Part shown: in pieces, positions 799 through 11,920 of the stretch
Numbering within the stretch: position 1 is the first letter of the stretch
Layout of the letters: the number at the start of each line of letters is the position of its first letter
From: a virus
Virus record (IMG/VR): IMGVR_UViG_3300034112_001137
Location: 1 to 21,600 of that record
Strand: one strand, 5' to 3'
Length of the DNA stretch: 21,600 nt
Notes under the pieces: generated by a model
Database searches by the model: none
Told to the model about the DNA's origin: nothing
The model's input: only the letters and a program-made list of their open reading frames with translations
Made by a program: the position numbers and the translations under genes

Positions 799-980
799 TC
801 ATATACCCTTTCGTTAGAAGCATTCATTATATCAGTTGCCACTGACAATAAATGCCTGGTAGCATAAATTTGTCCTTCAATATCTACTACATGTAAAGAC
901 ATGGGATTTTCTTCTAGGTCTTGTTCTAAACTAATTAGATGTAACTTCATATACTCTAGGAATGCAGATGATTTAGTCAT
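795..980 (-). CDS. Unknown 61-aa helical protein
   Basis: Starts MTKSSAFLEYMKLHLISLEQ. I chose the ATG at 980 because the two codons before it (TTG ATA) lie inside the upstream gene without a better ribosome site. It overlaps the upstream stop by 8 bases and the downstream ATG by 4. Promoter P1 lies inside its coding region, so its 3' half also serves as a control region for the next gene. Confidence 0.7.
   Translation of the reverse strand: MTKSSAFLEYMKLHLISLEQDLEENPMSLHVVDIEGQIYATRHLLSVATDIMNASNERVYE
826..848 (-). promoter_or_regulatory. Promoter P1 (TTGTCAG box, 11 bp, extended -10)
   Basis: Read on the minus strand: TTGTCA, 11 bases, then TATAAT with TGA in the extended -10 position. 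The predicted start is about 819 and the AACGAAAGGG site of the gene at 526-798 follows. The promoter is embedded in the upstream gene. No CRP-like palindrome lies at the usual distance. Confidence 0.7.
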
Positions 981-1155
981 TATCAAAATATCCTTCTGCC
1001 CATAGCCCCTGGAGGAAGTCTTGTGCTTTTAGTAGCCCGTCTACAACGGGATCTTCATCAACACGAACGATATCTGATTTAAGAATATAAAAAAGCTTGG
1101 CGTCATGCATAGCATTTCCCATTTCATCTATATCTGTTTTAGTGTAGCCTAGCAT
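973..1155 (-). CDS. Unknown 60-aa protein
   Basis: The sequence MLGYTKTDIDEMGNAMHDAK... is soluble and slightly acidic, with no recognisable motif. The start overlaps the previous stop (1149-1151) by seven bases. The gene belongs to the leftward run of small genes; function unknown. Confidence 0.7.
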   Translation of the reverse strand: MLGYTKTDIDEMGNAMHDAKLFYILKSDIVRVDEDPVVDGLLKAQDFLQGLWAEGYFDND

Positions 1156-1295
1156 TCAATCGCCTCCATATATTTAATCATAGTGTTTAATGTTATATGA
1201 ATGTGACAATCACAATCATCTGATGTATCTCTGTCATCAAAATGGATTAAGTTGTCATCATAGATATAATCAATTAGTTCTTGTGATGTAATCAT
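1149..1295 (-). CDS. Unknown 48-aa acidic protein with CDC motif
   Basis: Begins MITSQELIDYIYDDNLIHF and has the mid-segment DDCDCHIHI. The Cys/His cluster (C-x-C-x-H-x-H) might bind metal, but it is very short. The ATG overlaps the upstream stop by four bases and the TAG lies inside the next gene's start region. No family recognised. Confidence 0.65.
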   Translation of the reverse strand: MITSQELIDYIYDDNLIHFDDRDTSDDCDCHIHITLNTMIKYMEAIEC

Positions 1296-1522
1296 TCTGC
1301 CTCATTCCATTCTAAATAGTATTGGTCGCCTGGATTTAAATCATAGAATAGATTAAATCTACCCTTTAAGTAATTGTTATCTGACATTTCTGCAAATCTA
1401 AAATCTGCATACATTTGCCCTTCATCTAAATTAGAGTTGACCCAATCTTCGACAAGCATTTCGCCAATTTCTGAATATGTTGCGTCTATTACCATTTGGT
1501 TTTCATTCTCTAGAAAACTCAT
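1292..1522 (-). CDS. Unknown 76-aa acidic protein
   Basis: Starts MSFLENENQMVIDATYSEIG and is acidic and aromatic-rich (LFYDLNPGDQYYLEW). A strong site, AGAAAGGTGGG, precedes the ATG. Promoter P2 lies just upstream, inside the Api92-like gene, so it can be expressed separately from that gene. It overlaps the upstream stop by ATGA. Function unknown. Confidence 0.75.
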   Translation of the reverse strand: MSFLENENQMVIDATYSEIGEMLVEDWVNSNLDEGQMYADFRFAEMSDNNYLKGRFNLFYDLNPGDQYYLEWNEAE

Positions 1523-2256
1523 TTGGTTCCCACCTTTCTATATTCGGGTACTTTAGTGTCTAAGTATATCTTATGGGTCTGACAAATTGCGACAGCCTCT
1601 AGGTCAGCATTACCTAGCCAGTTGCAGTTGCCACAGATTTCACCGCAATCATTGTCGCAGTATTCCATTTGGTCAGTTGCATCACAATCACGGCACATAT
1701 TATCGTATTCTGATTCTGATATAACTTCTCCACGGAGGAATTCCATTTCCCCACCCCAACCTGTTTCTTCCTCATATGATAAAGTAAATAGTAGATTGGG
1801 ATATTGTGCAGATAGTTTAGAGATAGCACCAAGAGGTCGTGACCAAGCAGTTTGGAAGTTATAATGAACTACATAGTTCTCGCCATTCTCGGCTTCTTCC
1901 ATATTGGTATCAGGATATTTATCATCCTCAGATACGGCTACATCCCACTTAGTACCCCACTCACGAACATTAAAGTTGTACCAGTCATTGGTCTCAAACT
2001 TCATTGCCTGAGAAAAGTCGGTGGAACGAGGAGGCTGTCCATGATATACCTCATCAGTAATACCAGCATCTCTATAGTTATAGATATTATGAAAAGCAAA
2101 GATAGGATTAACATACTTAGTCTGCTTGACATCATATGATAAATCACCTAATGCAGTAATAGAATAAACAAATGGCTTATTCATCTGCTTGATTAAAGAT
2201 TTAACTTGCTCAGGATTACCTTCAATAGTTAATCCATTAAACACCCAATTTGGCAT
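1519..2256 (-). CDS. Api92-like / YubB ferredoxin-fold protein with Cys-rich C-terminus
   Basis: A 245-residue protein. The N-terminus MPNWVFNGLTIEGNPEQV and the later WGTKWDV motif match the Api92-like/YubB (DUF1281) family found in phages and plasmids, whose biochemical role is unknown. The C-terminal quarter holds a dense cysteine cluster (CRDC, YCDNDCGEICGNC) that looks like a zinc-binding ribbon and is not part of the core domain. I start at MPNW (2256), not at the upstream ATG at 2340, because promoter P3 and an ACGAAAGG site lie just before it and the added residues would be encoded by promoter DNA. It heads the P3 transcript. Confidence 0.85.
   Translation of the reverse strand: MPNWVFNGLTIEGNPEQVKSLIKQMNKPFVYSITALGDLSYDVKQTKYVNPIFAFHNIYNYRDAGITDEVYHGQPPRSTDFSQAMKFETNDWYNFNVREWGTKWDVAVSEDDKYPDTNMEEAENGENYVVHYNFQTAWSRPLGAISKLSAQYPNLLFTLSYEEETGWGGEMEFLRGEVISESEYDNMCRDCDATDQMEYCDNDCGEICGNCNWLGNADLEAVAICQTHKIYLDTKVPEYRKVGTK
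1563..1585 (-). promoter_or_regulatory. Promoter P2 (TTGTCAG box, 11 bp, TATACT)
   Basis: On the minus strand: TTGTCA, 11 bases, TATACT, with a predicted start near 1556, 34 bases before the ATG of the gene at 1292-1522. It lacks the TGn extension and any CRP-like site and lies inside the 3' end of the Api92-like gene, so it is the weakest member of the set. Confidence 0.5.
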
Positions 2257-2283
2257 TTTATATCCTTTCGTTGATATGTGATA

Positions 2284-2306
2284 ATTATACATTGGACCAC
2301 TGACAA
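2284..2306 (-). promoter_or_regulatory. Promoter P3 (TTGTCAG box, 11 bp, TATAAT)
   Basis: On the minus strand: TTGTCA, 11 bases, TATAAT, with a predicted start near 2277 and the leader leading into ACGAAAGGATAT. It drives the Api92-like gene. A CRP-like palindrome lies at 2351-2366. Confidence 0.8.
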
Positions 2307-2350
2307 ATGGAATAGAATTGGCATGTGATACATGCCACATAATTCAGATT

Positions 2351-2366
2351 TGTGGTCAAGATCACA
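2351..2366. promoter_or_regulatory. CRP-like palindrome upstream of P3
   Basis: TGTGG-N6-TCACA, one mismatch from TGTGA-N6-TCACA. It is centred at about -81.5 from the predicted P3 start, slightly off the spacing series of the others. Flanked on the right by AAATTCCAG, the same flank seen at the P6, P9 and P11 sites. Confidence 0.5.
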
Positions 2367-2412
2367 GCAAATTCCAGCGAATATAATTGACAGTCGTAAA
2401 GACAATATGCTA

Positions 2413-2460
2413 CCCTCATGTCTTTGAGGGCAAAGAAAAACCCCCAGCTTAACTGGGGGT
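2413..2460 (-). terminator. Tandem hairpins including an intrinsic terminator
   Basis: Read on the minus strand: an 8-bp stem (ACCCCCAG / CTGGGGGT, 2440-2460) followed by a run of U (2436-2440), a textbook rho-independent terminator. A second stem, CCCTCA/TGAGGG (2413-2430), follows immediately. It ends leftward transcripts before the P3 control region. Confidence 0.85.
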
Positions 2461-2578
2461 CTTGAATAATGGCTGCCTGGATTTCCAACGAAAGAAATAA
2501 ACCCGCTTTACTTAGCGCCTGGCCCGAAGACTGATAGACGCACCATTATATTTCCTATTAAAACCAGGACCTTAGTCC
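2436..2578 (-). ncRNA. Candidate structured leftward transcript (low confidence)
   Basis: This gene-free stretch follows the gene at 2587-2952. An extended -10 (TGG-TATAAT, 2585-2590 on the minus strand) overlaps that gene's stop and could start an RNA of about 140 nt ending at the terminator at 2436. The RNA would have several short stems: GGAC/GTCC, CGCT/AGCG, CCTGG/CCAGG and a long-range ATAATGG/CCATTAT pair. It has no -35 and no tRNA fold. The alternative is a long 3' untranslated region. Apart from this stretch, the 330-base gap 2257-2586 holds only promoter P3, its CRP-like site and the hairpins. Confidence 0.3.
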
Positions 2579-2586
2579 TAGTCTAA

Positions 2587-2952
2587 TTATACCATAACTA
2601 GTCGACTGTATTTGTCCACGAATGCAGCCAAGGATAAACTAAATACAACTGTTTCAAGGTCCTCTTCATACAGTGTAAACGTTTGATTAGCCCAATTAAT
2701 CACGGGCACCTTATGTTCGTTGTCCCCCAATTGATTGACATAGATTCCCCACGATAGTGTTTGATTCCAGTCTTCTCCAATTAGATGTGATATTGCAATA
2801 CGTGTTGCATATGATGGGTCCTGCCATCTTGTCTCCGCTGCCTGAACAGCATTTGCTAGTTTTGCTAGCATGTCATATCCCGCCCAGTGCCCGTATAAAA
2901 ATACCGTATCACCCTTTTGGTCTTTAAACCCAAAGTTTGCTCTGTCTCCCAT
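2587..2952 (-). CDS. Conserved actinophage 'MGDRANF' protein
   Basis: 121 residues. The N-terminus MGDRANFGFKDQKGDTVFLYG followed by HWAG, and the internal DPSYATRIAIS, resemble a protein common in actinobacterial phages and in some other phages and bacteria, with no assigned function. No membrane segment or metal motif is visible. It lies one base downstream of the zinc-ribbon gene, so the two are probably co-transcribed from P5 or P4. Recognition is from memory of the family, not a search. Confidence 0.8.
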   Translation of the reverse strand: MGDRANFGFKDQKGDTVFLYGHWAGYDMLAKLANAVQAAETRWQDPSYATRIAISHLIGEDWNQTLSWGIYVNQLGDNEHKVPVINWANQTFTLYEEDLETVVFSLSLAAFVDKYSRLVMV

Positions 2953-2953
2953 T

Positions 2954-3154
2954 TTATTCCGCCTTTTCTAAAGTAGGTAGTGCTGGTTCTTTCTTGTCTA
3001 ATTCTATCACTTCATAGGCGACCTTGTCTAGGCCTGCCTTATTTTTGTTGTAGTGGTGACCGCAAAAAGCTAGTTCGCCTTCTACTAGTTTAATTAAATA
3101 CATTGCATCTGCTGATCCACATGCATCGCAAGGAATGAATTCTCTGTCTCTCAT
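2954..3154 (-). CDS. DUF7455-like small zinc-ribbon protein
   Basis: 66 residues. MRDREFIPCDACGSADAMYL and LAFCGHHYNK give a CxxC (residues 9 and 12) and a C-x-H-H (31-34), the layout of the DUF7455 family frequent in actinobacteria and their phages. It probably binds zinc; the partner is unknown. The ATG overlaps the previous stop by four bases (ATGA). Confidence 0.8.
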   Translation of the reverse strand: MRDREFIPCDACGSADAMYLIKLVEGELAFCGHHYNKNKAGLDKVAYEVIELDKKEPALPTLEKAE

Positions 3155-3297
3155 AGAGCACCGCCTTCAATCATCTCAGAAAGACGGTCAAGAATCCAAG
3201 AATCAATATCGTTGATATCAATTTCTGATAACTTCTCCATTATTTCTTCACGGGCAAACTTATACCCATCATCCCAGCCATCTTTATACTCTGACAT
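3151..3297 (-). CDS. Unknown 48-aa protein
   Basis: Starts MSEYKDGWDDGYKFAREEIM. The YKDGWDDGYKFA pattern is common in small phage and bacterial proteins of unknown role and is followed by a helical acidic segment. A GGAG site precedes the ATG, and it is coupled by ATGA to the zinc-ribbon gene. Confidence 0.75.
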   Translation of the reverse strand: MSEYKDGWDDGYKFAREEIMEKLSEIDINDIDSWILDRLSEMIEGGAL

Positions 3298-3306
3298 AAT
3301 CTCTCC

Positions 3307-3510
3307 TTAATAACCTGTGGTTTCGTAGTCCGATACATAAGATTCAGTTAAGTTATACTTATCTCTAAGTCTACTTACTTTCTCAATACTACCAGTTCCA
3401 ATGTTGAATGTCAACGGAGACATTGCTTGCGGGTCGAGCCCTGTTATTTGTGCATCCCAATAGGCCATCTCCATGGATAGCCTATCAGGAGCGGTAAGTT
3501 CAAAGTACAT
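3307..3510 (-). CDS. Unknown 67-aa protein
   Basis: MYFELTAPDRLSMEMAYWDA... is soluble with no motif recognised. Its ATG overlaps the upstream TAA (TAATG). It lies downstream of P4 and P5. Confidence 0.75.
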   Translation of the reverse strand: MYFELTAPDRLSMEMAYWDAQITGLDPQAMSPLTFNIGTGSIEKVSRLRDKYNLTESYVSDYETTGY

Positions 3511-4127
3511 TAGCCCTCGATTCTATCTACAGATGATGATAGCCAAGTGATAGCATCTGAGTCATAAGACACAGTGTCAAAATCAATATCATGAATTAGA
3601 TTGTGTGCACTCTCTTCATCACGAGCATTAACTGTAATTGAATATAGAACTGTTACTTCTAGTTCAAACTCATTTGTTAGTTCAAACCCACAGATGCCAG
3701 CAATTTCTTCTGCTTGGTATTCTGTAATAGAATCGTCATCAAGACCTTCTAATGTGAATACCTTCATGTCGTCACGTAACTTGTTTAATGTTCCTGCAGT
3801 TGCATAATCACGCTGAGTTATACGCTGGATGTGCTCTTCTAACTGTGTAATGCGGGCTTTGTTATCTACTAACTGTGACTCAAGGAATTCTCGTGTCATG
3901 TAGTGATTATCTGTAGTTGTTTCCATTTTTACCTCTTCCGTTGTTGTTGGTGTAATTGTAGCATGCTCCACTGACAATAAGGTAGTCTTACGTCCGCAAG
4001 GGCATGTGAGTTCTGTCACACCTGATGGGAATCCAAACCCGTCAGATGATGTTAGTTCTATTAATGAATCGCATTCATCTGGGTCACAGACAAAGGTGTA
4101 CTTACTTGATACTAGTTCGTTGGTCAT
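3510..4127 (-). CDS. Two-part protein: Cys-rich N-domain plus coiled-coil domain, probable leaderless mRNA
   Basis: 205 residues if started at the ATG at 4127. The first ~67 residues hold a CxxxxC (CDPDEC) and a C-P-C (TCPCGR), a probable zinc-binding module. The rest, from METTTDNHYM at 3926, has a coiled-coil segment (VDNKARITQLEEHIQRITQR) and an acidic C-terminus. The -10 of P5 ends seven bases before the 4127 ATG, so that start would be leaderless. A second promoter (P4) with its own CRP-like site, and a GGAAGAGG site, lie inside the frame just before the ATG at 3926. The locus could therefore make both a 205-aa and a 138-aa protein. Neither domain is recognised. Confidence 0.75.
   Translation of the reverse strand: MTNELVSSKYTFVCDPDECDSLIELTSSDGFGFPSGVTELTCPCGRKTTLLSVEHATITPTTTEEVKMETTTDNHYMTREFLESQLVDNKARITQLEEHIQRITQRDYATAGTLNKLRDDMKVFTLEGLDDDSITEYQAEEIAGICGFELTNEFELEVTVLYSITVNARDEESAHNLIHDIDFDTVSYDSDAITWLSSSVDRIEG
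3955..3977 (-). promoter_or_regulatory. Promoter P4, internal to the 3510-4127 gene
   Basis: On the minus strand: TTGTCA, 11 bases, TACAAT with TGC before it; predicted start near 3948, 22 bases before an in-frame ATG (3926) that has GGAAGAGG upstream. Confidence 0.7.
4005..4020. promoter_or_regulatory. CRP-like palindrome for P4, inside coding sequence
   Basis: TGTGA-GTTCTG-TCACA, both arms perfect. Centred at about -64.5 from the predicted P4 start. The same bases encode the start of the VTELTCPCG segment. Confidence 0.65.
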
Positions 4128-4134
4128 AAAGAGA

Positions 4135-4157
4135 ATTGTACCAGGTCCCACTGACAT
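4135..4157 (-). promoter_or_regulatory. Promoter P5, predicted leaderless start
   Basis: On the minus strand: ATGTCA, 11 bases, TACAAT with TGG before it. The predicted +1 (about 4128) coincides with the ATG at 4127, and there is no ribosome site in between. Confidence 0.7.
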
Positions 4158-4183
4158 TATCAAGGATTTCCAAGGGATATTTA

Positions 4184-4199
4184 TGTGAGTCGTAACACA
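4184..4199. promoter_or_regulatory. CRP-like palindrome for P5 (imperfect)
   Basis: TGTGA-N6-ACACA, one mismatch in the second arm, centred at about -63.5 from the predicted P5 start. Confidence 0.4.
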
Positions 4200-4205
4200 C
4201 TTTTT

Positions 4206-4225
4206 GCCCCCTTAGCTTTGAGGGC
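4206..4225 (-). terminator. Hairpin downstream of tRNA-Asp
   Basis: GCCCCC/GAGGGC stem (one G-U) with an 8-base loop, three bases beyond the tRNA 3' end. There is no U-run on the minus strand (an A-run follows), so it may be a processing or pausing hairpin. Its loop sequence CTTAGCTTTG recurs in the hairpin at 5511-5527. Confidence 0.4.
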
Positions 4226-4228
4226 GCT

Positions 4229-4305
4229 TGGCGATCCATAACGGACTTGAACCGTCGACCTCTACCGTGACAGGGTAGCGCTCTAACCAACTGAGCTAAT
4301 GGACC
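4229..4305 (-). tRNA. tRNA-Asp (anticodon GUC), CCA encoded
   Basis: The 77-base cloverleaf on the minus strand has a 7-bp acceptor stem (GGTCCAT/ATGGATC), a D-arm with GCTCAGTTGGTTAGAGC, an anticodon stem CTACC/GGTAG with loop CTGTCAC, and a T-arm CGACGGTTCAAGTCCG. The anticodon is GUC. The discriminator base is G, as in bacterial tRNA-Asp, and CCA is encoded. It lies between the DUF932 terminator and P5. No promoter of its own is obvious, so it may depend on read-through. Confidence 0.95.
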
Positions 4306-4339
4306 TAAAAAAATTGTGAGCAGTTTTTATTCATGCTCA
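4304..4339 (-). terminator. Intrinsic terminator after the DUF932 gene
   Basis: On the minus strand: TGAGCA (4334-4339), an 11-base loop, TGCTCA (4317-4322), then CAA and seven T. It ends leftward transcription after the gene at 4353-5360, although the tRNA 5' end lies right at the end of the U-run. Confidence 0.7.
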
Positions 4340-4352
4340 GGAATTTATTTAT

Positions 4353-5360
4353 TTAGAACGCAGAAATTAATTTCTTAATTTTATTTTTTTCTGCGGTTAG
4401 AATTGGGTCAAACCCTGATGCACCCGCCATGAGTGTTTCAGAATTTCCACGACCTGAACGATAGTAATCAAGGCGTTCAGTAAGTGCATTGAATGCACCC
4501 CACTTTGTTCCCTTGATGTTAGCGTTAGTTGGTGAATTGTGATACAACTCGTCAAGCAACACGACTTTGTTTTCCCACTTAGTCAATGCAACTTTAGCAG
4601 CATCCTTATCAGGCTTAGGATAAATTGTCTGAATCAACTTTGAGAATTCAGCATCAGTAATTGATTGAGAATAAAGAGCCTGAGCCTCTTTCTCGAATTC
4701 ATCGAAGTACCCAAGAGCAAGCCCAAGAGTTTCACGAGCAACTTGGATGCGACCTTCAACAGATTGCGTGTGGCGAATCTTGAAAGATTGCTTAGCATTC
4801 TTCATTGCAAGGTTAAGAGTGTTTTGGCATACAACACGAACAGGAGTAACAGCAGCCTGAACAGCAACTGACCCGTCGTGAGATGTCCAAACAATTAGAT
4901 ACAACTTAGTTGCATCATTTGCGCCTTGTGGGTCAAGCACCATTGTGCGAGGAATATCCACTGTACCGAATACAACCTTACCGCTACGAAGTGAGCCAGC
5001 AGATTCCCAACGGCAATCTGCATTCGCATCGTGAATTGCATCGGCGAATGCGAATAGTTCCTCATTCTGCACAGGCTTGTAACGCTTTCCAACAGTTGCA
5101 AGAACATCAGTTCCATTGTTGAATGGGTTGTCACGAATAACTAATTGAGCATTAGATACATCGTTCCATGTTTCGGAAATGTGGTCAGTTAGTGGAGACA
5201 AGCGAACATTCCAGTTGGAAAGTTTTGCCTCATCTAACATCATTTGAGTTGTAACATCTTCATCCTGTGTAAAGATGCGATTTGCAAGGTTGTGCCATGC
5301 AGGTGCGCCACGAAGTGCGAATGCAACTTCGCCATTTTCCATTTCTAGATTATGAGCCAT
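4353..5360 (-). CDS. DUF932 phage/plasmid-like protein (TIGR03299 type)
   Basis: 335 residues, the usual length of the DUF932 family found in phages and plasmids. N-terminal MAHNLEMENGEVAFALRGAP followed by AWHNL, then the core with GKRYKPVQNEELFAFAD, and a central VAVQAAVTPVRVVCQNTLNLA are family hallmarks. Members are widespread in actinophages; the function is not established, though some are annotated as related to plasmid replication or anti-restriction. The gene has its own promoter (P6) with a CRP-like site and a DnaA-box pair, an AACGAAAGG site before the ATG, and its own terminator, so it is a single-gene transcription unit, probably strongly expressed early. Confidence 0.92.
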   Translation of the reverse strand: MAHNLEMENGEVAFALRGAPAWHNLANRIFTQDEDVTTQMMLDEAKLSNWNVRLSPLTDHISETWNDVSNAQLVIRDNPFNNGTDVLATVGKRYKPVQNEELFAFADAIHDANADCRWESAGSLRSGKVVFGTVDIPRTMVLDPQGANDATKLYLIVWTSHDGSVAVQAAVTPVRVVCQNTLNLAMKNAKQSFKIRHTQSVEGRIQVARETLGLALGYFDEFEKEAQALYSQSITDAEFSKLIQTIYPKPDKDAAKVALTKWENKVVLLDELYHNSPTNANIKGTKWGAFNALTERLDYYRSGRGNSETLMAGASGFDPILTAEKNKIKKLISAF

Positions 5361-5391
5361 TTTTTACCTTTCGTTTGTTTGATTAGTTGTA

Positions 5392-5414
5392 AGTATAACA
5401 GATGCCACTGACAT
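5392..5414 (-). promoter_or_regulatory. Promoter P6 of the DUF932 gene
   Basis: On the minus strand: ATGTCA, 11 bases, TATACT with TGT before it; predicted start near 5385, followed by AAACAAACGAAAGG and the ATG at 5360. Confidence 0.8.
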
Positions 5415-5451
5415 TGTCTATGATTAGTTACAATATGTCCGAATTGATCCA

Positions 5452-5467
5452 TGTGATTAATCTCACA
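5452..5467. promoter_or_regulatory. CRP-like palindrome for P6
   Basis: TGTGA-TTAATC-TCACA, both arms perfect, centred at about -74.5 from the predicted P6 start. The identical 16-mer occurs at 7255-7270 in front of P9. Confidence 0.7.
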
Positions 5468-5478
5468 AAATTCCAGGG

Positions 5479-5510
5479 TTATCCACAAGTGGTCGTAACC
5501 CTGTGGATAA
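5479..5510. promoter_or_regulatory. DnaA-box pair, inverted
   Basis: TTATCCACA (5479-5487) and its complement TGTGGATAA (5502-5510), 23 bases apart start to start. Both match the bacterial DnaA box TTATNCACA exactly. The pair lies 12 bases beyond the P6 CRP-like site. Confidence 0.65.
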
Positions 5511-5547: not shown

Positions 5548-5557
5548 TGTTAGATCT

Positions 5558-5908: not shown

Positions 5909-6331
5909 TTACAGATAACGAGCAATAGCATTGTAAGTGCTTGTGCTTACTGTTTCCTCATCTGTCATCTTTAGAATACGAATTGCGTTTTCCAATTCCT
6001 CTTTCATCTCATTGTATGAGTGGCGGTGGAGAACTTCGTAGTCCTTCTCAGGCTCTTTAGGAAAGTCTGACTCATTAACTGTTAAATCGAAATCAACATT
6101 AAGTGTCTTATTCCATGAGCGATAGTTTGTGCGGAAGTTTTCTGCCTTAGCAAAATTAGCCATAGCGAACTTTCCTACTTCTTTGCGCCACTTTTCTAAA
6201 GCCTTTTCGTGCTTTGCTTCGTTGGCTTCTTGTGATGCGTAATCGGCATTTAACTTTGCCAAGCGAGTTTCTAGTGCCTTGATTACCTTTGGTGTTGCTA
6301 TCTTTACGCTAATTGCTTTTTGTCGTGCCAT
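5909..6331 (-). CDS. Unknown 140-aa coiled-coil protein
   Basis: MARQKAISVKIATPKVIKAL begins a strongly helical protein. Residues ~15-60 (LETRLAKLNADYASQEANEA, then KHEKALEKWRKEV) are heptad-like, and residues ~110-135 form another amphipathic helix. It is highly charged and has no membrane segment. P7 lies directly upstream, with a TTCTTTCGTTG-type (AACGAAAGAA) site. The family is unknown to me; coiled coils of this size in phages are often scaffolds or adaptors, but the early-type promoter argues against a structural role. Confidence 0.8.
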   Translation of the reverse strand: MARQKAISVKIATPKVIKALETRLAKLNADYASQEANEAKHEKALEKWRKEVGKFAMANFAKAENFRTNYRSWNKTLNVDFDLTVNESDFPKEPEKDYEVLHRHSYNEMKEELENAIRILKMTDEETVSTSTYNAIARYL

Positions 6332-6370
6332 TTGTTTCCTTCTTTCGTTGTGGGTTGGGTTGATGAAGTA

Positions 6371-6393
6371 ATTATAGCAGGGGGGTCTGACAT
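6371..6393 (-). promoter_or_regulatory. Promoter P7
   Basis: On the minus strand: ATGTCA, 11 bases (GACCCCCCTGC), TATAAT with extended TGC; predicted start near 6364. No CRP-like palindrome upstream, where the next gene's coding sequence begins. Confidence 0.75.
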
Positions 6394-6417
6394 TTCTGCG
6401 ACCCCCCTCCCATTAAA

Positions 6418-6600
6418 TTAAACGCCTAGTAGTGTTTGAGCGGATACTGAAGTCCAACGAGTTTCCTTGTTGGGCATTTCTAGTAGCACACGCACCGAGC
6501 CAGATGTTTGTGGGTGGATTTCTTTAATCACACCTGTTTTCTTTGACTTGAGGGTAGTGAATAAATCGCCTACCTGATACAACTTGTCGTTGATTGTCAT
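6418..6600 (-). CDS. Unknown 60-aa SH3-like small protein
   Basis: MTINDKLYQVGDLFTTLKSK then KTGVIKEIHPQ and VRVLLEMPNKETRW. The alternating beta strands and the VGDLF...TGVIKEI pattern suggest a small SH3/KOW-like barrel, common in phage and bacterial proteins that bind nucleic acid or protein. This is a fold guess only. It is a single gene under P8. Confidence 0.75.
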   Translation of the reverse strand: MTINDKLYQVGDLFTTLKSKKTGVIKEIHPQTSGSVRVLLEMPNKETRWTSVSAQTLLGV

Positions 6601-6630
6601 TTATTGCCTCTTTTCTTTGTTAGGTTGGTA

Positions 6631-6653
6631 ATTATAGCATTGGGGTCTGACAT
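6631..6653 (-). promoter_or_regulatory. Promoter P8
   Basis: On the minus strand: ATGTCA, 11 bases (GACCCCAATGC), TATAAT with extended TGC; predicted start near 6624. Confidence 0.8.
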
Positions 6654-6690
6654 TAGTCTAGCCCTGTCTCAGTATTTGAGAAAGTTATTG

Positions 6691-6706
6691 TGTGACCTTA
6701 GTCACT
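6691..6706. promoter_or_regulatory. CRP-like palindrome for P8 (imperfect)
   Basis: TGTGA-N6-TCACT, one mismatch, centred at about -74.5 from the predicted start. It overlaps the stop codon of the upstream gene (6698-6700). Confidence 0.45.
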
Positions 6707-6961
6707 TTCAGGTAGCCAAGCGTGGAGATGGTGTTGCTCGATGATCGCCCACACTGGCGCACATGTCTGCCCCTTGTAAGTAATCCCATCAGGCATTTCG
6801 ATAGTTTCATCCCACATGTCATCATGAGCAAAATCTATTGCTTCGATACATACTGGCACCATAGAAAGCGGAACGGGTGGGTAATGATTACCCTGTAAGT
6901 GATAACCTAGTGCTACCTCTAAATCTAATTCAGTTAAATCTAACGCTGTATTGTATCCCAT
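6698..6961 (-). CDS. Conserved actinophage 87-aa protein
   Basis: MGYNTALDLTELDLEVALGY then HLQGNHYPPVPLSMVPVCIEAID resembles a small protein seen in many actinobacterial phages (core NHYPPVPLSMVPVCIEAID), function unknown. No membrane segment. Its ATG is adjacent to the stop of the gene at 6961-7164 (shared base), so it is the second gene of the P9 operon. Confidence 0.8.
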   Translation of the reverse strand: MGYNTALDLTELDLEVALGYHLQGNHYPPVPLSMVPVCIEAIDFAHDDMWDETIEMPDGITYKGQTCAPVWAIIEQHHLHAWLPESD

Positions 6962-7164
6962 TATTCTGCCACCTTAAGAATTGCGTAGGACCCATTAGCA
7001 TTTACTTCATCAAGAATTGGTTGTAAGCGTGGTGCCACCAATTCTTTTAATAGTGACTCTAGCATAAAGATACGAGTATTTTCATCAAGAGCCATAACTT
7101 GTGCAGTTACTGGATGGCCTTCCTTAAACTCTGTAACAAACTTGAGATTATGTTCTACTATCAT
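6961..7164 (-). CDS. Unknown 67-aa protein, first gene of P9 operon
   Basis: MIVEHNLKFVTEFKEGHPVT... is a small soluble alpha/beta protein with no motif recognised. An AACGAAAGGC site sits between the predicted P9 start (7189) and the ATG. Confidence 0.78.
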   Translation of the reverse strand: MIVEHNLKFVTEFKEGHPVTAQVMALDENTRIFMLESLLKELVAPRLQPILDEVNANGSYAILKVAE

Positions 7165-7195
7165 TTTTATTGCCTTTCGTTGTTGGTATAAGAGT

Positions 7196-7218
7196 ATTAT
7201 AGCCTATGCCACTGACAA
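7196..7218 (-). promoter_or_regulatory. Promoter P9
   Basis: On the minus strand: TTGTCA, 11 bases (GTGGCATAGGC), TATAAT; predicted start near 7189. The TGn extension is absent (GGC). Confidence 0.8.
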
Positions 7219-7254
7219 ATTGTGCAACACGCCCAATCTTTATCTAATTTATTT

Positions 7255-7270
7255 TGTGATTAATCTCACA
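7255..7270. promoter_or_regulatory. CRP-like palindrome for P9
   Basis: TGTGA-TTAATC-TCACA, perfect arms, identical to the P6 site; centred at about -73.5 from the predicted start. Confidence 0.7.
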
Positions 7271-7283
7271 AATTCCAGGGGGT

Positions 7284-7313
7284 TGTGGATAACCTACGTA
7301 AGCCTGTGGATAA
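7284..7313. promoter_or_regulatory. DnaA-box pair, direct
   Basis: TGTGGATAA at 7284-7292 and 7305-7313, same orientation, 21 bases apart (two helical turns). Both are perfect TTATCCACA boxes on the minus strand. Confidence 0.65.
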
Positions 7314-7314
7314 C

Positions 7315-7346
7315 CCCGCAGTATTGCGGGCCTGCATAGCTATGCA
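7315..7346 (-). terminator. Tandem hairpins before the P9 control region
   Basis: CCCGCA-GTAT-TGCGGG (7315-7330) followed by the perfect 14-bp palindrome TGCATAGCTATGCA (7333-7346), starting right after the stop of the gene at 7347-7478 in transcription order. There is no U-run; a terminator role fits the position. Confidence 0.5.
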
Positions 7347-7478
7347 TCACTCTGCATACTTATTTTTATGTTTGATCTTTCGAAAATATTTTTTCTTATT
7401 GCGAACAGGTTGCGCCGCATTACTGCGACGCAATTCCTGAATTCGCTTTACTTTATCTCGAAGTGAATTTTGGGACAT
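7347..7478 (-). CDS. Unknown 43-aa very basic protein
   Basis: MSQNSLRDKVKRIQELRRSN..., with a C-terminal run rich in Lys/Arg (VRNKKKYFRKIKHKNKY), so probably nucleic-acid binding or ribosome associated by charge alone. It overlaps the previous gene by 26 bases, which is unusual, and the ribosome site (AAGCGAGTGGG) is weak. The frame stays open and compositionally sensible up to the hairpin pair. Confidence 0.6.
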   Translation of the reverse strand: MSQNSLRDKVKRIQELRRSNAAQPVRNKKKYFRKIKHKNKYAE

Positions 7479-7644
7479 GATACCCACTCGCTTCATGAAA
7501 TCTATTTACATCAAATCGCTCATTATCTTTCGCAAACATTTCTGCGAAATCATTTACCATTTTAGAAAATAGTGCTGGGTGTGCTTTATCGCTTGCGAAC
7601 TTTAAAATTTCTGCTACTGCGACATAATCTTTTCGTGTCATCAT
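7453..7644 (-). CDS. Unknown 63-aa helical protein
   Basis: MMTRKDYVAVAEILKFASDK, then FAEMFAKDNERFDVNRFHEASG. The YVAVAEILK...FAEMFAKDN..FD..RF pattern is common in small actinophage proteins of unknown function. The start overlaps the previous stop by ATGA; the second Met (7641) is an equal alternative. Confidence 0.75.
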   Translation of the reverse strand: MMTRKDYVAVAEILKFASDKAHPALFSKMVNDFAEMFAKDNERFDVNRFHEASGYHVPKFTSR

Positions 7645-7844
7645 TTAACTGATACCATTCCTGTTCTGTAGAAAACTTTTGTATAGCATTTGCCTGTTGG
7701 CGTGTAAATATTTACAGTTGAGTATTCGTTAGCAAATCCCCAATCGGTGAATAAGAAAAAGTTTTCCCAAGCACCAAATTCGCTTTCGTATTCTGCTGAC
7801 CAATGAGGAGCGTGTCCGTCATAAGCACAAGTTAATTTATACAT
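7641..7844 (-). CDS. Unknown 67-aa aromatic-rich protein
   Basis: MYKLTCAYDGHAPHWSAEYE..., many Tyr/Phe/Trp and no clear motif. It is coupled to both neighbours by short overlaps and lies in the five-gene run that precedes the P9 control region. Confidence 0.7.
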   Translation of the reverse strand: MYKLTCAYDGHAPHWSAEYESEFGAWENFFLFTDWGFANEYSTVNIYTPTGKCYTKVFYRTGMVSVK

Positions 7845-7987
7845 TAGTCATTTTCTCCGTTCCAAAATAGTGAGCCGTCATCTACGCAATCGCAAGGTTC
7901 GCAATCGAAATCATTATCATCACCAAAAAAGATTACTCCGTGCCCGTGGCAATCTTGGCAATCTATTGCTAATACTGAGTTAATCAT
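7844..7987 (-). CDS. 47-aa Cys-rich zinc-finger-like protein
   Basis: The sequence has CQDCHGHG (residues 10-17), the CxxCxGxG repeat of DnaJ-type zinc fingers, and a second cluster CEPCDC near residue 30. Two CxxC pairs make zinc binding likely. The target is unknown. Stop and start overlap as TAATG with the gene at 7987-8151. Confidence 0.7.
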   Translation of the reverse strand: MINSVLAIDCQDCHGHGVIFFGDDNDFDCEPCDCVDDGSLFWNGEND

Positions 7988-8151
7988 TAGTGTTGTTCCT
8001 CGCAATCTTTGTCATAGTCAAATTCGCAGAAATAGCAACCCATAAACTCTAAGTGCTTTTCGCAGTAATACTTAAACTGACTTTCATCACAACAAAAATG
8101 TTGCTCGTCTGCGATTTCATAGAAATCGGTTTTGTCGATTATGTTTAACAT
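7987..8151 (-). CDS. 54-aa Cys-rich protein, first gene of P10 operon
   Basis: MLNIIDKTDFYEIADEQHFC then CDESQFKYYCEKH and GCYFCEFDYDKDC. Six or seven cysteines with CxxH and CxxC spacing suggest a metal-binding fold. The ATG follows AAACGAAAGGAAAAC. Function unknown. Confidence 0.7.
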   Translation of the reverse strand: MLNIIDKTDFYEIADEQHFCCDESQFKYYCEKHLEFMGCYFCEFDYDKDCEEQH

Positions 8152-8179
8152 AGTTTTCCTTTCGTTTGTTTATTTAGTT

Positions 8180-8202
8180 ATTGTATCAGGTAGCACTGAC
8201 AA
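8180..8202 (-). promoter_or_regulatory. Promoter P10
   Basis: On the minus strand: TTGTCA, 11 bases (GTGCTACCTGA), TACAAT with extended TGA; predicted start near 8173. No CRP-like site is seen in the upstream gene. Confidence 0.75.
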
Positions 8203-8203
8203 A

Positions 8204-8416
8204 TTAGTCAGATACCTTGACCGCCAAATAGCGGTAAGTATCTTTTAGATTTAGCGGTGCAGAATAAATTGGGCGTACCTGCACTTTGTAAGTATCTGCA
8301 TTTGCATACCAGACACTATCATTTTTTTCTGCTGAGATAATTTCTCCAGTAAGAGAATTTGAGCGATACATTTTTCCTACAAGTAGGCTTTCGATTGTGT
8401 AGACATTTGCTGACAT
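8204..8416 (-). CDS. Unknown 70-aa protein
   Basis: MSANVYTIESLLVGKMYRSN then SLTGEIISAEKND and YKVQVRP; beta-rich, probably a small barrel. A GAAAGGCGGA site precedes the ATG. It is a single gene between P11 and P10. No family recognised. Confidence 0.75.
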   Translation of the reverse strand: MSANVYTIESLLVGKMYRSNSLTGEIISAEKNDSVWYANADTYKVQVRPIYSAPLNLKDTYRYLAVKVSD

Positions 8417-8447
8417 GAAGTCCGCCTTTCGTTGTTGTTATAGTAGT

Positions 8448-8470
8448 ATTTTACCAGAACCCACTGACAA
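8448..8470 (-). promoter_or_regulatory. Promoter P11
   Basis: On the minus strand: TTGTCA, 11 bases (GTGGGTTCTGG), TAAAAT with extended TGG; predicted start near 8441. An extra inverted repeat, TTACT-AGCC-AGTAA (8478-8491), is centred near -43.5. Confidence 0.75.
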
Positions 8471-8477
8471 AAGATAA

Positions 8478-8533
8478 TTACTAGCCAGTAATTCCAAATA
8501 ATGAGACGCTCAAGTCATGTGATAAAAATCACA
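8478..8533. repeat. 56-bp duplicated control region, copy 1
   Basis: Runs from the TTACT-AGCC-AGTAA inverted repeat through GAGACGCTCA to the CRP-like palindrome. The second copy is 9355-9410, with the same length and about 80% identity; the first 19 bases are identical. Confidence 0.75.
8518..8533. promoter_or_regulatory. CRP-like palindrome for P11
   Basis: TGTGA-TAAAAA-TCACA, perfect arms, centred at about -84.5 from the predicted start. Confidence 0.65.
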
Positions 8534-8564
8534 AAATCTCGGGCGTGTCGCAAATTCCAGGGGT

Positions 8565-8594
8565 TGTGGATAACCCCCGTAACCCTGTGGATAA
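8565..8594. promoter_or_regulatory. DnaA-box pair, direct
   Basis: TGTGGATAA at 8565-8573 and 8586-8594, same orientation, 21 bases apart; both perfect. Confidence 0.65.
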
Positions 8595-8595
8595 C

Positions 8596-8611
8596 CCCGC
8601 TCTTTTGCGGG
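8596..8611 (-). terminator. GC hairpin before the P11 control region
   Basis: CCCGC-TCTTTT-GCGGG stem. It follows the stop of the gene at 8646-8744 in transcription order and has no U-run. Confidence 0.45.
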
Positions 8612-8645
8612 CGCATCAACTTTTGTCAAGTCGACACGCCTTTAC

Positions 8646-8744
8646 TTATTCGAAATCTTTAAAAATTTCTTCAAGCTTTAAGATTTGCTCATCTGTTAAA
8701 TGATCAATTTCAATTGCTTTTTCAAATCCAAAAAAATCTGTCAT
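8646..8744 (-). CDS. Unknown 32-aa acidic peptide
   Basis: MTDFFGFEKAIEIDHLTDEQ then ILKLEEIFKDFE: one amphipathic acidic helix. Its ATG overlaps the upstream stop by ATGA. The size is small, but the reading frame, overlap and codon use fit the operon. Function unknown. Confidence 0.6.
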   Translation of the reverse strand: MTDFFGFEKAIEIDHLTDEQILKLEEIFKDFE

Positions 8745-8956
8745 TCGCTCATCAACCTTTCTAAATCATCTGCATTATCTTGCATGTAATTATCTTGAAA
8801 ATCTAATAGTGCCTCATTGTATGCAATAGGGTCGCAATCTTTTAGAATTTGGGACGGATAAAAAACAGCGTTACCCATTTCATACACGGGATAACAATCA
8901 TCAAGCATTTCATCAAATAATTGTTTAATCGCATTAGTAATTTCGAAATCTAGCAT
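8741..8956 (-). CDS. Unknown 71-aa acidic protein
   Basis: MLDFEITNAIKQLFDEMLDD... is acidic and helical (FQDNYMQDNADDLERLMSE at the end). It is coupled by TAATG to the upstream gene. No family recognised. Confidence 0.72.
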   Translation of the reverse strand: MLDFEITNAIKQLFDEMLDDCYPVYEMGNAVFYPSQILKDCDPIAYNEALLDFQDNYMQDNADDLERLMSE

Positions 8957-9117
8957 TATGCGTTTTCCTTTTCTTTTAGTATTTCAAGAATTAACTCTAA
9001 TTGTGTTGCGGTTAGTAGTGCGGTTGCACAACCCCATGACCATGCAAGGTGTTGCTCACCATAGTGCTTTTTAGCAAGAGTGCTAATCTCTTGCGTTAAT
9101 TCGAAATTAGTTTTCAT
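8956..9117 (-). CDS. Unknown 53-aa helical protein
   Basis: MKTNFELTQEISTLAKKHYG then EQHLAWSWGCATALLTATQLELI. The pattern AWSWGCATALLT is reminiscent of short actinophage proteins of unknown role. The mid hydrophobic stretch is probably too short and polar for a membrane helix. It overlaps neighbours at both ends by three or four bases. Confidence 0.68.
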   Translation of the reverse strand: MKTNFELTQEISTLAKKHYGEQHLAWSWGCATALLTATQLELILEILKEKENA

Positions 9118-9290
9118 TTAGATACATACCAATCTGTCCACATAGGGAATTGCTCAGGGTCACTGTCATAGTAGTAACGCTCAATGTTTTGTTCGCAATC
9201 TACGCAGAAAGTAAATTGCTCATCTCCTACATTTGAGATAGCGGACACCATAGGGGTATGGTCTTTACATAGTGTGTTTAGTGTAGTCAT
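9114..9290 (-). CDS. 58-aa zinc-ribbon-like protein, first gene of P12 operon
   Basis: Started at MTTLNTLCKDHTPMVSA because AAAGGTGG precedes this ATG and P12's predicted start (9317) lies just upstream; a longer frame to 9332 would begin inside the promoter. CxxH (residues 8-11) and FCVDC near residue 30 form a possible zinc ribbon. It heads a four-gene run (9290 to 8646). Confidence 0.75.
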   Translation of the reverse strand: MTTLNTLCKDHTPMVSAISNVGDEQFTFCVDCEQNIERYYYDSDPEQFPMWTDWYVSK

Positions 9291-9323
9291 TTGAGACCAC
9301 CTTTCTTTTTCGTTATAGTAGGA

Positions 9324-9346
9324 ATTGTACACTAAGGGGCTGACAT
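9324..9346 (-). promoter_or_regulatory. Promoter P12
   Basis: On the minus strand: ATGTCA, 11 bases (GCCCCTTAGTG), TACAAT; predicted start near 9317. A TTACT-AGCC-AGTAA inverted repeat (9355-9368) is centred near -44.5. Confidence 0.75.
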
Positions 9347-9354
9347 TTCTCTAC

Positions 9355-9410
9355 TTACTAGCCAGTAATTCCATAATGTGAGACGCTCAGCCTATGTGAT
9401 AAATCTCACA
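9355..9410. repeat. 56-bp duplicated control region, copy 2
   Basis: The partner of 8478-8533. Starts with the identical 19 bases including TTACT-AGCC-AGTAA and ends with the CRP-like palindrome. It indicates that whole promoter cassettes duplicated, not just single operators. Confidence 0.75.
9395..9410. promoter_or_regulatory. CRP-like palindrome for P12
   Basis: TGTGA-TAAATC-TCACA, perfect arms, centred at about -85.5 from the predicted start. Confidence 0.7.
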
Positions 9411-9422
9411 TAAATCCAGGGG

Positions 9423-9454
9423 TTTTCCACAGAGGCCCGTAACCCTGTGGATAA
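9423..9454. promoter_or_regulatory. DnaA-box pair, inverted
   Basis: TTTTCCACA (9423-9431, one mismatch to the consensus) and TGTGGATAA (9446-9454, perfect), 23 bases apart as in the P6 pair. Confidence 0.55.
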
Positions 9455-9456
9455 CT

Positions 9457-9494
9457 CCCGCAAGTACTTGCGGGCCAGCTTGACAATGTCAAGC
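9457..9494 (-). terminator. Tandem hairpins before the P12 control region
   Basis: An 8-bp stem, CCCGCAAG/CTTGCGGG (9457-9474), and a perfect 17-base palindrome, GCTTGACA-A-TGTCAAGC (9478-9494). They follow the stop of the gene at 9510-9632 in transcription order. No U-run. Confidence 0.55.
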
Positions 9495-9509
9495 CGACAC
9501 TCCGTTAGG

Positions 9510-9632
9510 CTAGTGTGATTCGTGCCACATCTCTCGCATCTCTGCCTTAAAGTCATGCCATACGATCCTCGCCATGTATAGGGCGGGGAGGGCAAGGGAT
9601 AACTGTACTAGTGTAGTAAGTAGTCTATTCAT
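9510..9632 (-). CDS. 40-aa membrane-anchored protein
   Basis: MNRLLTTLVQLSLALPALYM followed by ARIVWHDFKAEMREMWHESH: one hydrophobic N-terminal helix (about residues 4-24) and a charged helical tail, so probably an inner-membrane protein with a cytoplasmic tail. The ATG overlaps the upstream TAA (TAATG). It is the last gene of the P13 operon. Function unknown. Confidence 0.7.
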   Translation of the reverse strand: MNRLLTTLVQLSLALPALYMARIVWHDFKAEMREMWHESH

Positions 9633-9802
9633 TACGCATTAACCTTATCTCTTAGTGATTGCATAGCGCTATCTATTTGATTATACGCATTAGCGCATGA
9701 GTAGCAATAGGTTTCGGTTAAGATACCACCCAATAGCATGGCATCTATTCCGCTATAAACTAAATCGGTATTGTTGCAGTTAATTACTTTACACTCTTTC
9801 AT
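9632..9802 (-). CDS. 56-aa protein with CxxxxC and CxxC
   Basis: MKECKVINCNNTDLVYSG..., later TETYCYSCANAYNQ. Two cysteine pairs, C4/C9 and C33/C36, suggest zinc binding. Linked by TAATG overlaps at both ends to its neighbours. Confidence 0.7.
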   Translation of the reverse strand: MKECKVINCNNTDLVYSGIDAMLLGGILTETYCYSCANAYNQIDSAMQSLRDKVNA

Positions 9803-9969
9803 TATGCGGTCACCTTTATGTCCATTACATTAGCGGTAAACTTTTTAACCTTGCCTAATTCGCTATCGTTAAGTGATGCGATTACATGGTCAATAGCCTT
9901 AGCCTCATGCGCTACATTGTCAATAGAGATTAGTTTAGAGCCTTGCCAAATTGAGTAAGTGATAGTCAT
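9802..9969 (-). CDS. Unknown 55-aa protein
   Basis: Started at MTITYSIWQGSKLISIDNVA (9969), because a longer frame to 9984 would overlap the upstream gene and GGGAG stands before the 9969 ATG. A small alpha/beta protein with no motif recognised. Confidence 0.68.
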   Translation of the reverse strand: MTITYSIWQGSKLISIDNVAHEAKAIDHVIASLNDSELGKVKKFTANVMDIKVTA

Positions 9970-9971
9970 TA

Positions 9972-10154
9972 TTAGTTCTCCCATGTTAGTTCGTATAGTT
10001 TTGCTAGTGCCTCATCATCTGAGTCATCAAATTCATCTAGTGGAGGTTGTTCCTCATCTACCTCATCAAGGTATGCGTATGCGTCTGCGACATCTGATTG
10101 GATAGTATCCCACTTAGACACGCTATTAGTTTCGTATGAGTATGCGTATGACAT
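9972..10154 (-). CDS. Unknown 60-aa strongly acidic protein
   Basis: MSYAYSYETNSVSKWDTIQS then a long Asp/Glu-rich stretch (DEVDEEQPPLDEFDDSDDE). Net charge is very negative, a property shared with DNA-mimic proteins but not proof of that role. An AAGGAGATG site lies upstream, and it is coupled by TAATG to the gene above. Confidence 0.7.
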   Translation of the reverse strand: MSYAYSYETNSVSKWDTIQSDVADAYAYLDEVDEEQPPLDEFDDSDDEALAKLYELTWEN

Positions 10155-10267
10155 TATTTATTCATCTCCTTAGCAATAGACTCTGACTTACGAAGTGCCT
10201 CTAGGGCGATTGATAGGGAGGCAAGGCGTTGCGCCTCTACCATTTGCTTGTATTCATCTAGTGTCAT
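10154..10267 (-). CDS. Unknown 37-aa helical peptide, first gene of P13 operon
   Basis: MTLDEYKQMVEAQRLASLSI then ALEALRKSESIAKEMNK: one long amphipathic helix. It is preceded by AACAACGAAAGGTC and P13. The stop overlaps the next ATG (TAATG). Confidence 0.7.
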   Translation of the reverse strand: MTLDEYKQMVEAQRLASLSIALEALRKSESIAKEMNK

Positions 10268-10299
10268 TTATTCTGACCTTTCGTTGTTGTTATGTTGTA

Positions 10300-10322
10300 A
10301 GTGTAGCATGGGGGTCTGACAA
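10300..10322 (-). promoter_or_regulatory. Promoter P13
   Basis: On the minus strand: TTGTCA, 11 bases (GACCCCCATGC), TACACT with extended TGC; predicted start near 10293. It drives five genes (10267 to 9510). Confidence 0.78.
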
Positions 10323-10349
10323 ATTGGGGAGGTTAGCCTAGCGTGTCGG

Positions 10350-10365
10350 TGTGAGGTGTGTCACC
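10350..10365. promoter_or_regulatory. CRP-like palindrome for P13 (imperfect)
   Basis: TGTGA-GGTGTG-TCACC, one mismatch, centred at about -64.5. It overlaps the last codons of the upstream gene (stop at 10361-10363). Confidence 0.45.
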
Positions 10366-10531
10366 TTCCTCGCTTAACTCGAATAGCCTCGGCTTGCGCT
10401 AATTGCTCAGGGGTAGCGTTACGGAAAGCCTGTACGCTCTCTCTAATCCAAGGGGACTTAGCCATAGCCTTTTCGTGAGCGATAGCGTTGCGCTCTTGTT
10501 GTTCTAATCTAATTCTATCTAATGTGTTCAT
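10361..10531 (-). CDS. Unknown 56-aa basic helical protein
   Basis: MNTLDRIRLEQQERNAIAHE then KAMAKSPWIRESVQ and a C-terminal RVKRGR. Helical and positively charged at the end. It is the first gene of the leftward arm, preceded by an ACGAAAGGC site and P14, hence transcribed away from the oxygenase gene at 10788. Confidence 0.7.
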   Translation of the reverse strand: MNTLDRIRLEQQERNAIAHEKAMAKSPWIRESVQAFRNATPEQLAQAEAIRVKRGR

Positions 10532-10561
10532 TTTATTGCCTTTCGTTTTTGTTATACCTTA

Positions 10562-10584
10562 AGCATAGCATGGGGGACTGACAA
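10562..10584 (-). promoter_or_regulatory. Promoter P14, first of the leftward arm
   Basis: On the minus strand: TTGTCA, 11 bases (GTCCCCCATGC), TATGCT with extended TGC; predicted start near 10555. The -10 is weak. Confidence 0.7.
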
Positions 10585-11906: not shown

Positions 11907-11920
11907 CAAAGGAGTAGAAT

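Follow-up and report, generated by a model that had tools for sequence, protein, structure and literature searches.

The window analysed here is a 21,600-base stretch of viral DNA with 38% GC, which makes up the full IMG/VR record IMGVR_UViG_3300034112_001137. It carries 14 copies of a site on its minus strand in which the heptamer WTGTCAG is followed, after a fixed gap, by a TAnnnT -10 element. These sites are real, conserved and beyond chance, and the TGTCAG/-10 site marks a whole phage lineage. We consider it probable that they serve as promoters for a block of minus-strand genes, presumably expressed early, which would use host PafBC and host CRP as activators. A second element, a TGTGA-N6-TCACA palindrome of the CRP type, lies upstream of ten of the 14 promoters and had been missed in the first-pass annotation of this DNA, in which the sites were first listed.

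All 14 sites of that list were recovered, each on the minus strand and with WTGTCAG, exactly 10 nt and TAnnnT (11 nt between the hexamers; Table 1). TGn precedes the -10 in ten of the 14, as had been counted before. The sequence AACGAAAGG, said to follow most of the sites, is exact in eight, so that 'most' is only just true. Not all sites are strictly intergenic: P826 and P1563 overlap the 3' portion of the open reading frame (ORF) upstream, and P3955 is inside an ORF. On the minus strand of the window, 14 of 17 WTGTCAG have TAnnnT at spacing 10, and each remaining spacing between 0 and 30 gives 0–3. The plus strand has two WTGTCAG and zero spaced matches. The stricter pattern WTGTCA-N11-TAYAAT gave nine matches in the window versus 0.03 expected from 100 dinucleotide shuffles.

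For comparison with relatives we used 80 contigs (1.30 Mb), of 252, collected by the DUF932 protein encoded downstream of P5392. Sites in these relatives share descent, and the counts are therefore of non-independent events. Where distinct sites are given, those close to the end of a locus were removed first, as were duplicates judged by their local sequence; matches at coding starts were retained in most counts, where they account for 12 of 837 matches or for 21 of 1004. At spacing 10 there were 837 matches on the gene strand versus none on the opposite strand, with 6–15 in each of the 80 loci. Other spacings within 5–15 gave none, save 15 matches at spacing 8; outside this range, spacing 4 gave one match, and spacing 16 gave 5 matches on one strand and 21 on the other. 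The coding start of a single gene, ATGTCAGCAAA, accounts for all 15 matches at spacing 8 and for 12 of the 837 at spacing 10, and spacing 8 was rejected as an alternative promoter class. In 16 long relatives a looser form of the motif occurs in 8–16 copies on one strand, compared with 0–2 for a control pattern; four of them (G001, G011, G012 and G013) have one opposite-strand match each. Equal frequency on both strands inside coding regions had been named beforehand as speaking against promoters. The relative G003 (117 kb) answers this condition as to strand and location: its 16 matches all share one strand and a single 11.4-kb block (21.3–32.7 kb), the match at 30306 being that coding start.

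The pattern was also found in viral contigs at large. TTGTCAGTG-N8-TATAAT is present in at least 119 stretches, many of them multi-site, while the N9 version is present in 25, all single-site. The joint pattern of palindrome and promoter occurs in at least 120 stretches and, with one extra spacer base, in none. Fifty of the contigs selected by the N8 pattern were examined: all 50 had a motif match and none a control match, and 35 encode a DUF932 relative (52–100% identity). Many of the 15 contigs without this relative have a single motif match. Selection by protein only gave the same picture. All 80 contigs (38 distinct sequences) have WTGTC[AG]G-N10-TAnnnT in the 150 bp that precede the DUF932 start, where 27–33 nt separate the -10 from the start codon, and all 80 also have a CRP-type palindrome (at most one mismatch) in this stretch. 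In an alignment of these upstream regions, box, -10 and palindrome stand out as conserved islands. Among 11 divergent contigs drawn from the motif-selected set (nine at 52–54% identity, one at 68%, one at 80%), ten have the box ahead of DUF932 and six the palindrome; the one contig without the box has TTGTCTG instead.

A chance origin of the sites was rejected by shuffle expectation, strand asymmetry and spacing control. There is next to no probability left that they are ordinary sigma-70 promoters in which TGTCAG recurs by chance or through coding sequence, a reading refuted by the controls. A few sites do have a nominal -35 at 17–18 nt (e.g. 4135, 5392 and 6631), and 12 of the 837 matches are the coding start mentioned above. 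Against this stand the nine strict matches, the ratio of 837 to 0 by strand, and the loss of the joint pattern upon altered spacing. A general sigma-70 scan gave 75 versus 59 ± 7.5 in shuffles, so that the sigma-70 pattern explains little. TTGACA was not seen in the -35 region upstream of the box in 483 sites (e.g. C in only 7% at position -2), which bears out the earlier statement that the box is not an ordinary -35. The sites look like real promoters, as had been proposed, and the box is probably read by a factor other than sigma region 4.

A promoter class with this layout is known from actinobacterial hosts. The RecA-independent DNA-damage promoter (RecA-NDp, or recA P1) is described by the consensus tTGTCRgtg, 8 nt, TannnT (PMC5656591, citing Gamulin 2004). 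The consensus is reported to extend to other Actinobacteria, with PafBC as the activator (PMC8223512, PMC6789036), the level of which is given as unchanged upon damage (PMC6789036). According to the structural work, the helix-turn-helix of PafB sits on the -26 motif and PafC on domain 4 of sigma-A, and PafBC is activated by single-stranded DNA (ssDNA; PMC11804915). The full TTGTCRGTG-N8-TANNNT is present at six window sites, and both the core TGTCRG-N10-TAnnnT and the 8-nt gap between the gtg position and TAnnnT at all 14. The R position was analysed in 563 distinct relaxed TGTC?G sites, where A occurs 509 times, G 44, C 6 and T 4; the opposite strand has five sites in total. In 483 sites, TGTCAG is preceded by A or T (imposed by the filter) and followed by T (64%) or A (29%) and then by G or C; TGn ahead of the -10 is usual (G 78%). 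If +1 is placed as usual, the centre of TGTCAG falls close to -26, where the motif lies in the PafBC complex (PMC11804915). The phage sites share with RecA-NDp/PafBC promoters TGTCRG after T or A, the 8-nt gap, the TAnnnT -10, the box at -26 and, most likely, the actinobacterial setting. They differ in being phage-borne, in 8–16 copies mostly in one gene block, and in usually having TGn; their gtg is less conserved (TG or AC/CC), and they are often joined to a phased CRP-type site. The promoter class is already known in hosts; as far as our searches show, its role as principal switch for a block of phage genes is new: the literature found on PafBC and phages and on RecA-NDp, in the parts available, holds no phage promoters of this kind.

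The first-pass annotation had compared the sites with the middle promoters of phage T4. As an analogy of layout this is fair, since in both a box replaces the -35 contact and the -10 is often extended; for the phage sites a housekeeping sigma would be used as well. The likeness does not extend to the box itself, and the RecA-NDp class of hosts had gone unrecognised. The MotA box is given as (a/t)(a/t)(a/t)TGCTTtA at 12 ± 1 bp (PMC2988021), in contrast to the other sequence and fixed spacing found in these phages. MotA and AsiA are not among the Pfam families listed for 136 of 195 ORFs of G003 (one list: 25 of 44 families).

A phage-encoded activator from among the small unannotated proteins could read TGTCAG and appropriate sigma-A as MotA/AsiA do in T4, the likeness to RecA-NDp being convergence. 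Besides the shared layout, it speaks for such an activator that 47 early-region proteins of G003 match only eight Pfam families, most being without known function, and that the motif is lacking in named relatives, so that the factor could be lineage-specific. We nevertheless regard it as unlikely. The match to the host class spans box, R position, 8-nt gap and -10, and, if the block is early, its promoters must fire before phage proteins exist. Domain searches in 17 records (16 relatives and Samisti12), each positive in control genomes including Corynebacterium, found no WYL-domain protein, no cNMP_binding domain and no Sigma70_r4 match above cut-off; a weak Sigma70_r4 match below cut-off occurs in seven relatives and Samisti12. 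Within these 17 records a phage-encoded reader of the WYL, CRP or sigma-4 type was rejected, and host factors would be the economical answer. With no WYL-domain protein in these records, host PafBC is the likely reader of the box. In G001, G002, G003, G004 and G007 we also noted an open frame of 50–51 amino acids (L239, L240; G003:C1:102892-102987) that matches sigma region 4 below cut-off. The Pfam scan of the 136 predicted G003 ORFs gave WhiB, RecA and SSB among the families; the majority of the structural genes and a number of small ORFs were outside this set.

The palindrome upstream of the promoters is the second part of the argument. The window has 12 copies of TGTGA-N6-TCACA with at most one mismatch, versus 0.97 expected, and all of them are between 2.3 and 10.7 kb. 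Its offsets from the box are -33, -42/-43, -52/-53, -60 and -63/-64 (R 0.84 at period 10). The twelfth copy (9514-9529), about 170 bp upstream of the P9324 box, is outside the promoter assignments. In the 80 loci, 334 of 511 distinct sites have the palindrome within 150 bp (at most one mismatch), and 697 of 843 palindromes sit 20–130 bp upstream of a box, a zone that covers no more than 8.5% of the sequence. For four control palindromes the counts in this zone were 0/40, 0/29, 22/95 and 25/77. Among 78 promoter groups, the 40 whose commonest state has the palindrome give offsets with a best period of 10.5 bp (R 0.78); the 38 groups with no palindrome as the commonest state were excluded. In a second, partly overlapping set, in which gaps of 21–51 only are seen, the gaps peak at 28, 38 and 48, with R 0.66 at period 10 versus at most 0.26 in 1000 uniform draws. 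In the divergent phages, offsets of -43, -53 and -63/-64 recur and the palindrome is present at 56 of 105 sites. Steps of about 10 bp place the palindrome on the same helix face.

Helical phasing is expected of an activator that touches RNA polymerase, and it is more usual for activators. In Escherichia coli, class I CRP sites have their centres at -61.5, -71.5 and so on. The phage palindromes share with the sites of CRP, GlxR and CRP-Mt the palindrome type, which is identical, and the whole-turn steps upstream of the promoter. They differ from class I sites in that their centres would be about 3 bp farther upstream, with +1 taken 7 nt past the -10, and that they are paired with a -26 box, not a -35. 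CRP-Mt and GlxR are reported to bind such sites and the CRP of Streptomyces coelicolor not to (PMC5449483). A promoter with both a -26 box and a CRP site was not found in the literature, as far as our searches show.

Host proteins other than PafBC and CRP were also considered. The box might be read by ClgR, by a WhiB-like protein bound to sigma-A or by an unknown paralogue, and the palindrome by a repressor of the CRP/FNR family. ClgR has been reported to recognise the recA P1 region (cited in PMC5656591), and some of these phages have their own WhiB. However, structural evidence ties PafBC to the -26 motif (PMC11804915), and the helical phasing described above is more usual for an activator. 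We judge these other readers to be quite improbable.

Several points weigh against activation by host PafBC and CRP. The gtg of the RecA-NDp consensus is only partly kept, with A or C at its t in 36% of the 483 sites. No palindrome within one mismatch is present at 177 of the 511 distinct sites. Two of the four control palindromes are themselves enriched upstream of boxes, far less than the CRP type and presumably by descent. An off-phase class occurs at gaps 33–34 in the second set (22 of 160), and the palindrome centres (about -64.5, -74.5 and -84.5 with this +1) would be some 3 bp upstream of the E. coli class I positions. None of the relative records is known to be complete, and many small phage proteins have no known domain, which leaves room for a phage-encoded reader. 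Finally, with one mismatch allowed, 0–2 matches (controls 0–3) were obtained in each of 14 named actinophages, a set that includes the closest relatives in culture that were found. Phages in general therefore do not need such promoters. With no excess in these 14 or in Samisti12 (one motif match, one control match), the motif was rejected as a general actinophage feature.

Start codons give independent support for the assignment of the transcription start. A start codon was located for 469 of 505 relative sites, in 282 of them 27–33 nt past the -10. In 48 of 504 sites it follows 6 or 7 nt past the -10, and a first start at 3–5 or 8–11 nt occurs in none. This suggests, from its position, that the mRNAs of the 6–7-nt class are leaderless. 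The 12 examples of the class that were printed all belong to one gene, that of P4135.

A third repeated element, also missed in the first-pass annotation, is the DnaA box TTATCCACA. Seven copies are present in the window versus 0.24 expected, all upstream of P5392, P7196, P8448 and P9324, six of them in one orientation and with two pairs 21 bp apart. G003 likewise has seven DnaA boxes in 117 kb, all in the promoter block, and 505 upstream regions of 200 bp contain 178 boxes pointing one way versus 12 pointing the opposite way. These boxes may mark a candidate replication origin, control by DnaA, or both. Upstream of the same four promoters we noted repeated CCTGGAATT or CCTGGATTT and GCCCGCAA blocks, lying between DnaA boxes, palindrome and upstream gene; CCCTGGAA, CCTGGAAT and GCCCGCAA are enriched in the relatives. 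Such blocks are possible terminators or a further binding site.

Table 1. Promoters, upstream elements and the DUF932 gene in the window. Promoters are named after the start of their -10; offsets are those of the palindrome from the box of the promoter given.
Feature	Position	Strand	Description
P826	826..848	-	TTGTCAGTG box, N8, TATAAT; gene start 798; in 3' part of ORF 795-986
P1563	1563..1585	-	TTGTCAG, N10, TATACT; ATG 1522; in 3' end of upstream gene
P2284	2284..2306	-	TTGTCAGTG, N8, TATAAT; ATG 2256
P3955	3955..3977	-	TTGTCAGTG, N8, TACAAT; ATG 3926; inside ORF 3510-4127
P4135	4135..4157	-	ATGTCAGTG, N8, TACAAT; ATG 4127, 7 nt past -10, probably leaderless
P5392	5392..5414	-	ATGTCAGTG, N8, TATACT; DUF932 gene, ATG 5360
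P6371	6371..6393	-	ATGTCAG, N10, TATAAT; ATG 6331
P6631	6631..6653	-	ATGTCAG, N10, TATAAT; ATG 6600
P7196	7196..7218	-	TTGTCAGTG, N8, TATAAT; ATG 7164
P8180	8180..8202	-	TTGTCAGTG, N8, TACAAT; ATG 8151
P8448	8448..8470	-	TTGTCAGTG, N8, TAAAAT; ATG 8416
P9324	9324..9346	-	ATGTCAG, N10, TACAAT; first ATG 33 nt past -10
P10300	10300..10322	-	TTGTCAG, N10, TACACT; first ATG 32 nt past -10
P10562	10562..10584	-	TTGTCAG, N10, TATGCT; ATG 10531
CRP-type palindrome	2324..2339		1 mismatch; offset -33, P2284
CRP-type palindrome	2351..2366		1 mismatch; offset -60, P2284
CRP-type palindrome	4005..4020		exact; offset -43, P3955
CRP-type palindrome	4184..4199		1 mismatch; offset -42, P4135
CRP-type palindrome	5452..5467		exact; offset -53, P5392
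CRP-type palindrome	6691..6706		1 mismatch; offset -53, P6631
CRP-type palindrome	7255..7270		exact; offset -52, P7196
CRP-type palindrome	8518..8533		exact; offset -63, P8448
CRP-type palindrome	9395..9410		exact; offset -64, P9324
CRP-type palindrome	10350..10365		1 mismatch; offset -43, P10300
CRP-type palindrome	10622..10637		exact; offset -53, P10562
Two DnaA boxes TTATCCACA	5479..5510		5479-5487 on +, 5502-5510 on -; upstream of P5392
Two DnaA boxes	7284..7313	-	direct repeat, 21 bp apart; upstream of P7196
Two DnaA boxes	8565..8594	-	direct repeat, 21 bp apart; upstream of P8448
One DnaA box	9446..9454	-	upstream of P9324
DUF932 protein gene	4353..5360	-	downstream of P5392; query protein for collecting relatives

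The promoters belong to a block of many small ORFs on the minus strand (about 0.1–10.6 kb), and plus-strand genes follow from 10.8 kb onward, including a ribonucleotide reductase gene and one whose product matches 2OG oxygenase below cut-off. Ahead of the first plus-strand gene (10788) lies a promoter-like site of ordinary type, TTGACT-N16-TATAAT at 10754-10781, unlike those of the minus-strand block. Two tRNA genes were noted, for tRNA-Asp (gtc) at 4229-4305 and tRNA-Ile (tat) at 11832-11907. The relatives are longer than the window; Pfam DUF932 is also present in the early-region set of G003.

Among named phages, the closest relatives that were found are members of the Stanwilliamsviridae that infect Streptomyces, with a DUF932 protein about 50% identical and a ribonucleotide reductase 61% identical. 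At the DNA level, a search against named phages gave no near match to the window, and a distant search with window positions 13-1155 gave 56 records, with 3–6% query cover among the matches listed. WhiB, which is described as confined to Actinobacteria (PMC6802176), is encoded by seven of the 16 long relatives, including all five of at least 110 kb. Because of WhiB in the relatives and Streptomyces phages as nearest named relatives, the window phage is most likely an actinobacteriophage. Its GC content allows the guess that the host is a low-GC freshwater actinobacterium, e.g. of the Nanopelagicales. A scan of a genome collection with the DUF932 protein found one locus, the phage contig L232 (CAINGU010000031.1), which carries these promoters; it was probably misbinned into its metagenome-assembled genome, titled uncultured cyanobacterium.

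The promoter parts, a -26 box WTGTCAG, a fixed 10-nt gap, a TAnnnT -10 usually with TGn and, at ten sites, the palindrome, suggest the following course. On entry of the phage DNA, host sigma-A RNA polymerase would meet a usually extended -10 without a -35. Host PafBC, if it is the reader, would bridge sigma-A and the -26 box and so replace the -35 contact (sigma adaptation). Host CRP on the phased site could add a second contact to RNA polymerase, acting by activation and not by repression. The minus-strand block would be transcribed early. As mycobacterial PafBC is switched on by ssDNA, ssDNA from entry, replication or breakdown of host DNA could raise phage expression in a positive feedback. 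It is a tentative and rather doubtful extension that the lineage ties its early programme to CRP-cAMP (carbon), to PafBC (ssDNA, damage) and, at four window promoters, to DnaA (replication).

If this reading is right, the sites would map the promoters of uncultured phages, offer natural examples of a -26 box joined to a CRP site, and let sigma adaptation be put to the test in the control of phage genes. Some 500 distinct variants from nature would show the bases tolerated by the reader. If the three-regulator reading is true, the phage would sense the state of its host without coding for sensors, and its own ssDNA would raise expression. If PafBC does act here, a host DNA-damage activator would serve as the switch of a phage lineage, and a response that ought to benefit the cell would aid the phage.

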